The notes under the pieces are model-generated. The model made no database searches, was not told the DNA's origin, and saw only the letters and a list, made by a program, of their open reading frames with translations. This document shows positions 11,023 through 15,304 of a DNA stretch of 22,290 bases, piece after piece (position 1 is the first letter of the stretch; each line of letters opens with the position of its first letter). The position numbers and the translations under genes were made by a program. The stretch is from positions 1 through 22,290 of IMG/VR virus record IMGVR_UViG_3300044858_000531; one strand, written 5' to 3'. The DNA comes from a virus.

Positions 11023-11367
11023 TTATCGTGCTGCTATTGCATTTGCTGCTTTTGGTCTACCGCGCTTCTTTAATATGACTTCTTGTTTGGCGTTGTTGAC
11101 ACTAATGCTGAGTTTTGCCTTAGATTTCTGCCCACTCCCTGAGTTGCAGACATTGATGGCATCACCGGTGCTGATACTGCTCTCGGCCTTGCTACCCTCA
11201 TTGTTGAGGTTAACGGCCTTACTGTTGGCGTTGCTTTCGTTCCCGACCAATTGTTCGCCATGCTTGATTACCTCAGTATATGATTCAAGTGAACGCATCT
11301 TAGCAATATCGCTAGGATTAATAAAACTAGCGGTATTGCCAGAGCGTTTACATTTAAAAGTTACCAA
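11023..11367 (-). CDS. Small protein with C-terminal AT-hook-like motif
   Basis: 114 residues. The start is TTG at 11367, overlapping the stop of the gene upstream by 7 nt; no in-frame ATG occurs until residue 24, so TTG fits best. The N-terminus (FKCKRSGNTASF, then SDIAKMRSLESYTEV) resembles a small domain of about 35 residues seen in other phage structural-region proteins. A Ser/Asn/Gly-rich linker follows. The C-terminus has KKRGRPKAA (residues 100-108), matching the AT-hook core RGRP that binds the minor groove of AT-rich DNA. It may bind packaged DNA or the head interior. The domain pattern is what I see; DNA binding and location are inference. Confidence 0.7.
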   Translation of the reverse strand: MVTFKCKRSGNTASFINPSDIAKMRSLESYTEVIKHGEQLVGNESNANSKAVNLNNEGSKAESSISTGDAINVCNSGSGQKSKAKLSISVNNAKQEVILKKRGRPKAANAIAAR

Positions 11368-11699
11368 CTAGGTCTACCAATAATCACCTTCCATGTAGAA
11401 GTAGCCAAATCCAATGCAACTGAGGCATGATGATTGTTGATTCTAATGGTAATGGTGTTAGCTGCTGAAACAAATACATTGACATCTGCGTCTATGGTTA
11501 GATCAACTCCAGCGGACACACCAAGAATCATATCTCCTAGTGCCACGTTCGGAATAGTAAATGTTGCGGTATCTTCAGCAGCAGCTGCAATAGATGCTGG
11601 ATTTACCGTAAGATTGGCAAGCCAGAGTTCCGTGAAGGCTCCCTGAAACATCTTTGCCCCTTGTGCTACGTTTGTTACTGTTGCTGTGGTAAAAGCCAT
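11361..11699 (-). CDS. Small beta-rich virion protein, possible capsid decoration
   Basis: 112 residues, hydrophobic and beta-rich (ALGDMILGVSAGVDLTIDAD, then NVFVSAANTITIRINNHHAS, with WKVIIGRP at the end). The N-terminus (MAFTTATVTNVAQGAKMFQG) and overall pattern resemble small phage head proteins usually encoded next to the major capsid gene. The ATG at 11699 has a textbook Shine-Dalgarno (AAGGAG, 6 nt spacing). That site lies inside the last codons of the endonuclease gene, whose stop codon abuts this start. Without the inserted endonuclease this gene would directly follow the capsid gene, the expected place for a decoration or stabilising protein. A similar small protein is encoded between terminase and portal (19455-19790), though I see no clear sequence identity. 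Confidence 0.7.
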   Translation of the reverse strand: MAFTTATVTNVAQGAKMFQGAFTELWLANLTVNPASIAAAAEDTATFTIPNVALGDMILGVSAGVDLTIDADVNVFVSAANTITIRINNHHASVALDLATSTWKVIIGRPSW

Positions 11700-12275
11700 T
11701 TATATCTCCTTGGTGTGTTTTATTAAATACTCCATTGCATTTGTAAGTCTGTTTATATCATCATTAAAATGCCCCAATCCTGTATTGCATTTTCCACATA
11801 ATAACTCTCTGATATGACCTTTACTATGACAATGGTCAATAACTAATCCATTTTTTCCATAATCAGATTTTTCATCATTACAAATTGCACACTTACCGCT
11901 TTGGTTTGCATACATTTTACGATAATCAAATAATCCAATTCCATATTTACTTTTCATCTTCCAATGTCGCCAATAGTCACTTCGGCTAAGATGTTTTATG
12001 GTATGAGCTCTTTCATCATAATCAGGGTTATTTTTTTTTCGTTCTTCAACTTCTAGTGCTTGTTTTGGATAAACATTTTCCTTATTGTATTCACGCATTT
12101 TAGCATTATAACCATCACGGTCTTTATCTCTAGTGCGTTGCTTTGATAATCTTTGTCTTTCACGTTCTTTTTCAAGATTACGCTCCCTATATTCTACCGC
12201 ATAACCTTTTTGTTTTGCAGCATACTCAGGGTCTATCTCTTTTCTTGCTTTTATCTTTTCATATGATATTGGCAT
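11700..12275 (-). CDS. HNH endonuclease, recombination endonuclease VII type, likely free-standing homing enzyme
   Basis: 191 residues. The N-terminal 100 or so are very basic and charged (YREREN-like helices, KERERQRLSKQRTRDKDRD) and may grip DNA. The C-terminal domain has the endonuclease VII signature. Zinc cysteines are CAIC (129, 132) and CGKC (160, 163), the active-site motif DHCH is at 147-150, and NTGLGHFNDD follows at 164-173. All expected residues are present, so it should be active. It separates the major capsid gene from a small head gene, a classic place for a mobile endonuclease in phages. Codons look AT-richer than its neighbours. It has its own promoter (12307-12335) and a hairpin over its ribosome-binding site (12282-12305). 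A packaging or Holliday-junction role cannot be ruled out. Confidence 0.88.
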   Translation of the reverse strand: MPISYEKIKARKEIDPEYAAKQKGYAVEYRERNLEKERERQRLSKQRTRDKDRDGYNAKMREYNKENVYPKQALEVEERKKNNPDYDERAHTIKHLSRSDYWRHWKMKSKYGIGLFDYRKMYANQSGKCAICNDEKSDYGKNGLVIDHCHSKGHIRELLCGKCNTGLGHFNDDINRLTNAMEYLIKHTKEI

Positions 12276-12281
12276 AATCTT

Positions 12282-12305
12282 CCCCTAGTGATAAATTACT
12301 AGGAG
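12282..12305 (-). promoter_or_regulatory. RNA hairpin masking the ribosome-binding site of the endonuclease VII-type gene
   Basis: On the minus strand CTCCTAGT (12305-12298) can pair with ACTAGGGG (12289-12282) around an 8-nt loop, giving eight pairs with one G-U. The 3' arm contains most of the Shine-Dalgarno AGGGGAAG of the gene starting at 12275. The predicted start of transcription from the gene's own promoter is the A at 12300, inside the 5' arm. Only three stem bases would then remain, leaving the site open. mRNA reading through from the capsid operon would carry the whole hairpin. Pairing is seen directly; the regulatory effect is inferred by analogy with T4 I-TevI. Confidence 0.65.
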
Positions 12306-12306
12306 A

Positions 12307-12335
12307 AGTATATACCTATCTTATATAAGAATCAA
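12307..12335 (-). promoter_or_regulatory. Sigma-70-like promoter for the endonuclease VII-type gene
   Basis: On the minus strand the -35 element is TTGATT (12335-12330) and the -10 is TATACT (12312-12307), with a 17-bp spacer. That is five of six matches at each box with ideal spacing. The first well-placed purine downstream is A12300. The leader would be about 25 nt, ending in the Shine-Dalgarno AGGGGAAG. The site lies in the 81-bp gap between the capsid gene stop and the endonuclease start. Confidence 0.65.
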
Positions 12336-12356: not shown

Positions 12357-13409
12357 TCAAGCCGGCACAATTATCGAGAGGCCACCATAGTCACGCAATT
12401 CTTTAGTGCCGAAGATACAATCAGTTGTAACTAGATAACCTAGATACTCTTGCTTGTATTGCTTTTGAGTACGGATACCTTGTTGCTCAACAAGAACCAG
12501 AGAGTCCTTATGGAACATCATACCAGCACGATACTTTGTGTCAGTAGGTGAGGATGTATTCCAATCAACAGCAATAGCAAAATCATCTGAATACGATGCG
12601 CCAGTAGGAGCAGTAGATGAGAATGTCACTGATTGTGTACCAGTTTGGCTGTTAACGTGAATCCAAGGGCAGTTGCTGGAAACAAACAGCTCTACACCGT
12701 ATAGATTACCTAGTCTACCAGTGCGAATGACGTTATTACCGCCAGCCTCACCAACAAACGCTTGCTCTGTAAAGCGAGAGATTCCGCGCAGTACATTGCT
12801 TTCTACAGGTGGAAGCACCAATGACAACTCCATAGAGTTAACATCAGAATCTTCAAGAGTTTGAATCATACGTCTGATAGCTGCATCAGTAATAGCTGCA
12901 CCGTTACCAGTGTTGGTATTGGCAGAGCCACTGAAGTTTGTTGAACCATCGCTACCGATAACAGCCTTCTCATACAAAGCAGTTGCAGTTGCTACAGTAC
13001 CAGCGTTGAAGCCAGCTCCAAGTTTATGCAGTTCACGGTCAATACGCTTGGCTAGTGCATAGCCAGCATCTTCTGTGTAAAAGCTCTTCATGCCGTTCAA
13101 TGATTGAATGTCAGCCATATCTTCATATAGTTTGGAGTATTCATACCATTTATCAACATAAACAAGCACTTCAGTAGCTGTATCAGCGACTAGAGTAACT
13201 TGAGTGTTTGCTACCTTTGCAGATGCCTCACCGCGACCTGGTGATGGAATATGGAAAGTATCTCCTTTGCGACCTTTATGGTTCATTCTCTTAACGAGAT
13301 TAGCCATAACTGTTTTGGTCTTGTAAGTTGCTATTGCATCATCTTCCCACTGCTCCGGAATCCACTTGTCGCTTGTGGTGATGGTTGTATTATTTGTTCC
13401 TAGTCCCAT
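12357..13409 (-). CDS. Major capsid protein
   Basis: 350 residues, the right size for an HK97-fold coat protein. By eye the N-terminal pattern matches a large family of podovirus coat proteins. It opens with SDKWIPEQWEDDAIATYKTK, continues with GDTFHIPSPGRGEASAK (the GDTxHIP segment) and then VYVDKWYEYSKLYEDMADIQ. YALAKRIDRELHKLGAGF follows at about residues 117-135. The C-terminus (DYGGLSIIVPA) is also typical of the group. It follows the scaffold-like gene by 19 bp, with AGGGG about 7 nt before the ATG. A strong promoter upstream of the scaffold gene probably gives the high level a coat protein needs. It is interrupted from the next head gene by an inserted HNH endonuclease. Confidence 0.88.
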   Translation of the reverse strand: MGLGTNNTTITTSDKWIPEQWEDDAIATYKTKTVMANLVKRMNHKGRKGDTFHIPSPGRGEASAKVANTQVTLVADTATEVLVYVDKWYEYSKLYEDMADIQSLNGMKSFYTEDAGYALAKRIDRELHKLGAGFNAGTVATATALYEKAVIGSDGSTNFSGSANTNTGNGAAITDAAIRRMIQTLEDSDVNSMELSLVLPPVESNVLRGISRFTEQAFVGEAGGNNVIRTGRLGNLYGVELFVSSNCPWIHVNSQTGTQSVTFSSTAPTGASYSDDFAIAVDWNTSSPTDTKYRAGMMFHKDSLVLVEQQGIRTQKQYKQEYLGYLVTTDCIFGTKELRDYGGLSIIVPA

Positions 13410-14521: not shown

Positions 14522-14744
14522 TTAAATCTCTCCATGTTGCCTCACTTGCTGCTTGCCAGTTGATAATAAGTGATAAAATATTCATTTCACCCTTTGCTAA
14601 GTACAATTCTTGCTCGTTTTTGACTGTATTCAACTGATTGGTTGTCTCTAAAATAGCAGTCATTTCCTCAATGAAATCAAGCCATCCGCGAGTGGACATC
14701 ATCTCAAACTTGTCCTCATAGTGCCTTTGTAGCTCTATATCCAT
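14505..14744 (-). CDS. Small helical phage protein, unknown function
   Basis: 79 residues, acidic and almost all helix-forming (DFIEEMTAILETTNQLNTVK, then QELYLAKGEMNILSLIINWQ). It overlaps the repeat-protein gene upstream by 10 bp and the zinc-ribbon gene downstream by 17 bp, so the three are probably translated as a coupled set. I recall small helical proteins of about 80 residues with a central K-N-E-Q-E-x-Y segment and a closing W next to phage head genes, but know no function for them. Nothing suggests an enzyme or a membrane protein. The gene is accepted because of its coupling and its place in a gap-free array. Confidence 0.7.
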   Translation of the reverse strand: MDIELQRHYEDKFEMMSTRGWLDFIEEMTAILETTNQLNTVKNEQELYLAKGEMNILSLIINWQAASEATWRDLNENTN

Positions 14745-15304
14745 GTTCCTCCATTACTTGCTTTAAGTGTTTTTACTACCCATGCAAAACCATTCCATGT
14801 TTTAAGAGTCTTTGGAACCCATGCAGAGCCGTTCCAGTATTTAAGTCTTGCTGCTACTGTTGCTACATACGTTAATGTCGCTGCGTTTCCTGAGTAGCTG
14901 TAAGCACCTGCATCACAGGTCAGCGTATAGCCAACAATCCCAGCATACGTTAATGTCGCTGCGTTACCTGTGTAAGTGTAAGCACCAGTTGCACATGATA
15001 AAACGTAGCTTACAGATAGTGTGGCATCATTACCTGCGTAAGAATACGCACCAGCACCACATACAAGCCCATACTGTACAGATAGTGTTGCAGCCTGTCC
15101 TACATAATTATAAGCCCCAGCAGCGCAAGCCAGACTCTTGTCTACTTGTAATGTAGCCGCCTGTCCTGTGTAAGCATAAGCACCAGCATCACAAGTTAAC
15201 GTATACGCTGTAGGCCCTCCAGAATCGGGGGCATCAGTTCTGAGCCTAACACCATTAACGCTGTCCCCAGCGTCAGGTCTTAGATAAATGTCGTTTGTTG
15301 CCAT
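14735..15304 (-). CDS. Repeat-built virion surface protein with five 22-residue repeats
   Basis: 189 residues. After an N-terminal segment (IYLRPDAGDSVNGVRLRTDA) come five repeats of the pattern L-x-C-x-x-G-A-Y-x-Y-x-G-x-x-A-T-L, with their cysteines at residues 38, 60, 82, 104 and 130 (spacing 22, 22, 22, 26). The C-terminus has three shorter repeats of about 13 residues (LKYWNGSAWVPKT, LKTWNGFAWVVKT, LKASNGGTWI). Each repeat looks like one beta hairpin, so the protein may be a solenoid or fibre. The start abuts the stop of the gene upstream (TAG then ATG). I recognise both repeat types from other phage structural proteins. Place and composition suggest a capsid or neck decoration with possible binding to cell or matrix surfaces, which is inference. 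Confidence 0.75.
   Translation of the reverse strand: MATNDIYLRPDAGDSVNGVRLRTDAPDSGGPTAYTLTCDAGAYAYTGQAATLQVDKSLACAAGAYNYVGQAATLSVQYGLVCGAGAYSYAGNDATLSVSYVLSCATGAYTYTGNAATLTYAGIVGYTLTCDAGAYSYSGNAATLTYVATVAARLKYWNGSAWVPKTLKTWNGFAWVVKTLKASNGGTWI
14866..14965. repeat. Direct repeat within the repeat-protein gene
   Basis: A 22-bp sequence beginning CATACGTTAATG occurs identically at 14866-14887 and 14944-14965, 78 bp apart. It encodes the strand AATLTYV or AATLTYA of neighbouring protein repeats. Other copies at about 66-bp steps are diverged. Near-identity of these two suggests recent duplication or exchange between repeat units. Confidence 0.8.

Follow-up and report, generated by a model that had tools for sequence, protein, structure and literature searches.

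A predicted transcript-origin lock on the endonuclease VII-type gene behind the major capsid gene of an uncultured phage

The endonuclease VII (EndoVII)-type gene that follows the major capsid protein (MCP) gene in the phage analysed here appears to carry a translational lock tied to the origin of its transcript, with the gene's own promoter overlapping the arm of a leader hairpin that pairs with the Shine-Dalgarno (SD) sequence. We put the probability of this reading at roughly two in three. On the long read-through mRNA of the capsid operon, a hairpin of 11 bp plus 6 bp would bury the SD and the AUG, and little endonuclease would be made. The gene's own sigma-70-like promoter would yield a transcript from about 12300 that lacks most of the anti-SD arm; because promoter and arm overlap, a transcript begun there would have an open ribosome-binding site (RBS). 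The hairpin is directly supported, as are its high stability and its persistence in diverged relatives and a second MCP lineage, where the arms have been rewritten.

The endonuclease locus

The window, by which we mean the whole stretch of DNA analysed, is the entire 22.3 kb IMG/VR contig, and its structural module is encoded on the − strand (Table 1).

Table 1. Features of the window locus, and SD-pairing arms in leaders of the same capsid lineage
Feature	Position	Strand	Sequence, evidence or remark
MCP gene, upstream of endonuclease	12357..13409	−	PHROG 267 major head protein, 2.8e-37
EndoVII-type endonuclease, DHHRN motif, 191 aa	11700..12275	−	PF02945, 3.5e-23
Next structural-module gene	11361..11699	−	SD overlaps endonuclease's last codons; homologs at same place in occupied and empty relatives
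−35-like element	12330..12335	−	TTGATT; 4/6 match, spacer 17
−10-like element	12307..12312	−	TATACT; 5/6 match; overlaps outer stem and first two bases of 5′ arm
Predicted transcription start, A12300, within 5′ arm	12300	−	7 nt past −10; truncated RNA would open SD
5′ (anti-SD) arm	12298..12308	−	CTTCTCCTAGT; fold, z −4.7
Hairpin loop, 8 nt	12290..12297	−	AATTTATC; fold
3′ arm, contains SD	12279..12289	−	ACTAGGGGAAG; fold
Outer stem, 5′ side	12311..12316	−	GGTATA; pairs with 12276-12271
Outer stem, 3′ side, start codon included	12271..12276	−	TATGCC; fold
SD-pairing arms, window			CTTCTCCTAGT/ACTAGGGGAAG; −10-like TATACT
SD-pairing arms, L043			AATTCTCCTGTC/GGCAGGAGAATT; −10-like TACAAT
SD-pairing arms, L044			CCCCTCAC/GTGAGGGG; −10-like TAAACT
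SD-pairing arms, L128			AATCCTCCTAC/GTAGGAGGATT; −10-like TATAAT
SD-pairing arms, L207			ATATCCTCTGGGTG/CACTCGGAGGATAT; −10-like TATCCT
SD-pairing arms, L045			GTTTCCTCTATATTGGT/ACCAATATAGGGGAAGC; −10-like TATATT
SD-pairing arms, L129			TCCATGT/ACATGGA, weak; −10-like TATAAT

Residues C129, C132, D147, H148, H150, R156, C160, C163 and N164 are invariant in alignments of the endonuclease and make up the DHHRN motif (CxxC, DHxH, R, CxxCN), for which we follow the DHHRN/EndoVII definition of PMC6083498; a profile built from the relatives of the window enzyme matches both Hpy99I and T4 EndoVII. Both the catalytic and the zinc residues of the motif are intact. The corresponding empty site is found in L016, which has a 97% identical MCP and no endonuclease gene. 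There an intrinsic terminator comes after the MCP stop and is itself followed by GGAGATATAAATGGCTTTTAC, the sequence that in the window forms the end of the endonuclease gene and the start of the next gene. The last codons of the endonuclease (AAG GAG ATA TAA, within 11700-11712) are the SD of the next gene, where the empty site has GGAGATATAAATGG, so that the insertion re-uses the ancestral junction. In most relatives for which both flanking genes were identified, a short junction, ~50-90 nt long, lies between them; the endonuclease occupies seven loci. On this comparison of alleles, we take the endonuclease gene to be an insertion between the MCP gene and the next gene, and probably a mobile one. 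Searched as DNA against phage records, the window locus had no match. Two side observations may be added: the junction of L017, a relative with a 92% identical MCP and a post-MCP terminator (from 1826), did not show the usual next gene, and the window gene at 14735-15304 contains an internal direct repeat (~14866-15195; offset 66-78 bases, ~68% identical).

An earlier, sequence-only reading had placed an eight-pair hairpin (12305-12298 with 12289-12282), an SD, a promoter match and a predicted +1 in this leader, and all of them are found on the − strand where it put them. The eight pairs exist, one of them U·G, but the stem is longer than described: 11 pairs close the 8-nt loop and, beyond a 2x2 internal loop, six more enclose the AUG in the window fold. 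The leader folds with a minimum free energy of −28.1 kcal/mol, shuffled sequences averaging −13.8 (sd 3.05; z = −4.7), and none of 200 shuffles was as stable; as for I-TevI, the predicted fold of long transcripts contains a stable hairpin that sequesters the RBS. When the leader is folded from 12300 and from an upstream start, as the same reading had proposed, predicted SD accessibility is 0.75 in the former and 0.00 in the latter, the long transcript being an upstream-initiated one with 84 nt of leader. The AUG is still partly paired in the short RNA (predicted accessibility 0.14). All seven leaders of the window's lineage, described below, behave in this way, with predicted SD accessibility rising from 0.00-0.13 in the long transcript to 0.32-0.75 from the predicted +1; the start codons used throughout are likewise predicted. 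We discounted ribosome coupling from the MCP gene, since ~40-50 nt separate its stop codon from the start of the stem. A search of Rfam returned one sub-threshold match to a microRNA hairpin, on the opposite strand, which we regard as chance.

The promoter match, TTGATT-17-TATACT, scores 9/12 against a sigma-70-like consensus, which may not be that of the host. Sites of similar score number 12 in 4 kb, compared with 10.0 ± 2.8 in shuffles, which is chance level, and the placement of the match within its own leader alone gives p = 0.09. In our scoring the window promoter gains significance only by comparison with its relatives, across which a match whose predicted start would remove the 5′ arm is significant. 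Activity of the promoter, and both the occurrence and the silence of read-through, we infer. The elements are of the sigma-70-like −35/−10 type and not of the T4 late or middle type, so the switch in the window would lie outside the T-even system and only work like it. PHROG scans of ten large non-structural proteins, drawn from three relatives, gave no match to an RNA polymerase, which makes use of the host enzyme plausible. The spacer between −35 and −10 holds a further dyad or palindrome (12330-12319, TCTTATATAAGA), a possible operator; L043 has a counterpart, GACTAATtatggATTAGTC, and L044 and L128 also have one.

Hairpins and promoter-like sequences in two capsid lineages

An EndoVII-type gene lies right behind the MCP gene in seven diverged phages (the window, L043, L044, L045, L128, L129 and L207). 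In L043, L044 and L045 the endonuclease is 46, 45 and 34% identical to that of the window and lies in the gap between the MCP gene and the homologue of the next gene. This gap is also occupied in L207 and L129, and in L128 an MCP fragment is immediately upstream of the endonuclease. The SD is paired in every one of the seven leaders, by hairpins of differing sequence (Table 1), and in all seven the −10-like hexamer overlaps or adjoins the anti-SD arm. The sequence-only reading would have the arms kept as a pair in relatives, and SD-pairing hairpins are present in diverged alleles whose arms have been rewritten. Promoter-like sequences are placed non-randomly over the anti-SD arm: a −35/−10 score of at least 9 with the +1 in the arm or loop was obtained for six of the seven leaders but for only 1 of 58 control genes with SD hairpins, and comparison of the placement in the seven leaders with dinucleotide shuffles gave a Fisher p of 3e-7. 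It is important to note that the first hairpin-bearing members of this lineage (lineage A) were spotted by eye ahead of the formal tests.

The exact leader pattern occurs in just five viral contigs, all with the window gene, and close copies of the window share its leader letter for letter, leaving no close covariation to measure. Because MAFFT did not place the arms of the lineage A leaders correctly, column-wise covariation was replaced by a comparison of own-arm with cross-arm complementarity, which is partly circular because the arms were chosen by folding. Four further loci (L202, L227, L456 and L097) have an EndoVII gene behind a window-type MCP gene, with low identity to the window enzyme, and did not pass the SD-pairing criterion.

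Alignment-based endonuclease scans also revealed many EndoVII genes that follow a Mu-type major head protein gene (PHROG 371) at a distance of 20-200 nt. By PHROG assignment this head protein belongs to another family than the window capsid (PHROG 267). SD pairing above 0.8 was found in 59% of 69 PHROG 371-adjacent leaders and 64% of 11 window-lineage leaders, compared with 9.5% of 148 EndoVII genes with neither capsid type just upstream and 8.3% of 1067 other genes; since the leaders were gathered from matches to a few seed proteins, these frequencies are not population estimates. Approximately 40% of MCP-adjacent EndoVII leaders fail this criterion. After clustering at 65% leader identity, which may still leave leaders phylogenetically non-independent, 22 of 37 MCP-adjacent leaders were SD-paired, as against 12 of 74 other EndoVII leaders (p 7e-6) and 89 of 1067 control genes (p 4e-14). 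A promoter score of at least 9/12, a cut-off chosen post hoc as the window's own score, was reached by 12 of the 22 clustered locked leaders and by 6 of 89 control hairpins (p 1.7e-6). The test of the second lineage (lineage B) was itself prompted by inspection of leaders.

In this second lineage the anti-SD arm is often inside the −35/−10 spacer, as in L346 (TTGACA-agaaatcGTCTCCCGGTG-TATGAT ... CATCGGGAGATGAAA-ATG; spacer 18). L346 and L128 both have stronger promoter matches than the window, and some matches over the anti-SD arm consist of perfect hexamers, as in L305 (TTGACA-16-TATAAT). When promoter score is considered as a function of offset, both lineages peak at zero, the position at which the +1 removes the anti-SD, and the resulting leaders would be 19-30 nt long; no antisense site in this positional scan reaches 9. 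In the tree of the EndoVII domain, which is short, the five locked enzymes that remain from the window's lineage after clustering group together with support (SH-aLRT 96), apart from those of the second lineage. In a phylogeny-controlled comparison of MCP adjacency with the lock, the tree provides one supported independent pair. L202, L227 and L456 fall outside the clade of locked window-lineage enzymes.

Inspection of Bas94, EcSW4, KpV2811, KN4-1, LPP-2, BUCT541, CHRF_20120 and Cy-LDV1, annotated phages whose EndoVII genes lie away from the MCP gene, revealed no SD hairpin comparable to the lock, and we found no laboratory phage with the lock among the annotated phages inspected. In Escherichia phage Bas94 (L293), the two parts of a split DNA polymerase I gene enclose the EndoVII gene (636-1136), which is probably intronic, and no strong SD hairpin is present in the 50 nt before its start.

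What the hairpin might otherwise be

The I-TevI-type switch dependent on transcript origin that the sequence-only reading had proposed stands in part: the relatives keep the SD hairpin with rewritten arms and a promoter-like +1 within or past the anti-SD arm, but the window promoter taken alone is at chance. The latter would suit a hairpin that acts as a constant translational brake on every message, with no internal promoter and no switch, as would the 10 of 22 clustered locked leaders that have no promoter match of at least 9 in the critical place. We nevertheless consider a constant brake unlikely, given that promoter-like matches over the anti-SD far exceed those in shuffled sequences, in control hairpins, at shifted positions and on the antisense strand, and that some leaders, such as L305, have perfect −35 and −10 hexamers. 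The dyad might instead be a DNA operator, serving for example autorepression by the endonuclease, with the RNA fold incidental; the dyads do overlap the promoter, the window spacer holds a palindrome as well, and T4 I-TevI represses itself at its own promoter (PMC2988022). Against this, the arm covers the SD in all cases, and the off-dyad positions, read in the sense RNA, comprise 8 G·U, 2 C·A and 1 transversion. This bias (8/11 G·U) favours pairing in RNA, although the count is small and transitions alone stand at 8:2, and an operator seems to us improbable.

It is more doubtful still that the hairpin is a terminator or 3′-end stabiliser of the capsid message, substituting for the post-MCP stem-loop of the empty alleles. 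That terminator-like stem-loop is present in empty relatives such as L016 and absent from the window, and a T-run follows the hairpin in L427 and L429. However, no T-run follows the window hairpin, at least five T within the next 8 nt occur in just 1 of 16 dyads, and the lineage B loci L053, L057 and L083 have a separate post-MCP stem-loop in addition to the leader hairpin. In L427 (~1550-1639) and L429 (~590-668) the T-run is directly before the start codon, and the leader hairpin there may also act as a terminator with a promoter inside it. Finally, many weak promoter matches are to be expected in an AT-rich intergenic region, making us alert to a chance hairpin coinciding with a chance promoter, but recurrence in seven diverged alleles at one locus and in a second MCP lineage contradicts this reading, to which we give almost no credence.

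The lock tied to transcript origin is thus the reading we prefer. Its benefit would be an endonuclease output independent of the abundant capsid message, and such a decoupling of dose is a simpler benefit, and a likely one. Protection of the capsid operon from untimely cutting, as the sequence-only reading had it, appears unsupported by analogy with T4, in which removal of the hairpin of I-TevI did not alter viability through the endonuclease (PMC2988022).

Relation to known locks

Promoter-in-hairpin locks have been described in T-even phages for I-TevI, I-TevII, I-TevIII, segB and Aeh1 mobE (PMC2988022, PMC3014915). In T4 I-TevI, I-TevII and I-TevIII, as predicted for the window, the RBS is concealed by a stable hairpin when the mRNA is initiated upstream, and mRNA from a promoter within that structure lacks the 5′ arm (PMC2988022, PMC3014915). 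The I-Tev enzymes are intron-encoded and use T4 middle or late promoters, whereas the window gene is free-standing, outside any intron, and has a putative sigma-70-like promoter; the T4 hairpin also mattered for intron splicing in the case of I-TevI (PMC2988022). The T4 lock silences early messages, whereas that of the window would silence capsid read-through. With the capsid transcript as the read-through message, the timing may be inverted relative to T4. The layout predicted for the window has counterparts in T4 segB and mobE of Aeromonas phage Aeh1, free-standing homing endonuclease genes with an RBS hairpin and an I-TevI-like promoter arrangement (PMC2988022), but they are GIY-YIG or HNH enzymes of T-even phages, are not behind the MCP gene, and have another promoter type.

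Sequestration of the SD and/or AUG in an RNA helix is also shared with T4 genes e, soc and 49; the late-promoter message of gene e lacks the 5′ part, and the product of gene 49, endonuclease VII, has its catalytic motif in common with the window enzyme (PMC3014915). Unlike the window gene, these three are resident phage genes and not insertions, and they use T4 late promoters. EndoVII-motif homing endonucleases are already known (PMC6083498). Among them F-CphI, of the DHHRN family, is free-standing with a C-terminal EndoVII catalytic motif like the window enzyme, but it adjoins psbA, and no hairpin or RBS lock is mentioned for it (PMC6083498). Homing endonucleases cluster near capsid and other essential genes (PMC10448857), and T4 segD likewise adjoins the major capsid gene (gene 23); it differs from the window gene in being GIY-YIG, in opposite orientation and with no promoter identified (PMC2988022). 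In the literature searched, coverage of which is incomplete, we found no description of a capsid-adjacent EndoVII gene with a promoter-in-hairpin lock outside the T-even phages. The predicted switch would differ from those of T4 in its sigma-70-like promoters, its EndoVII (DHHRN) enzymes, its capsid-adjacent site and possibly its inverted timing.

A broader proposal, to which we commit ourselves only tentatively and which may well prove wrong, is that MCP-adjacent EndoVII genes have acquired, repeatedly in evolution, a promoter in which the anti-SD itself forms the spacer or discriminator, such that only transcripts from their own host-type (probably early) promoter would be translatable and the capsid message would be silent; convergent with the T4 switch but inverted in timing, this arrangement would be widespread among uncultured phages. 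That such a lock recurs in two capsid lineages of uncultured phages, its arms rewritten, points to a general route by which a mobile nuclease can reside behind the most heavily expressed gene of its phage without being driven by that gene, and an anti-SD inside a promoter, together with a leader of 19-30 nt, provides a rule by which further cases can be searched for.
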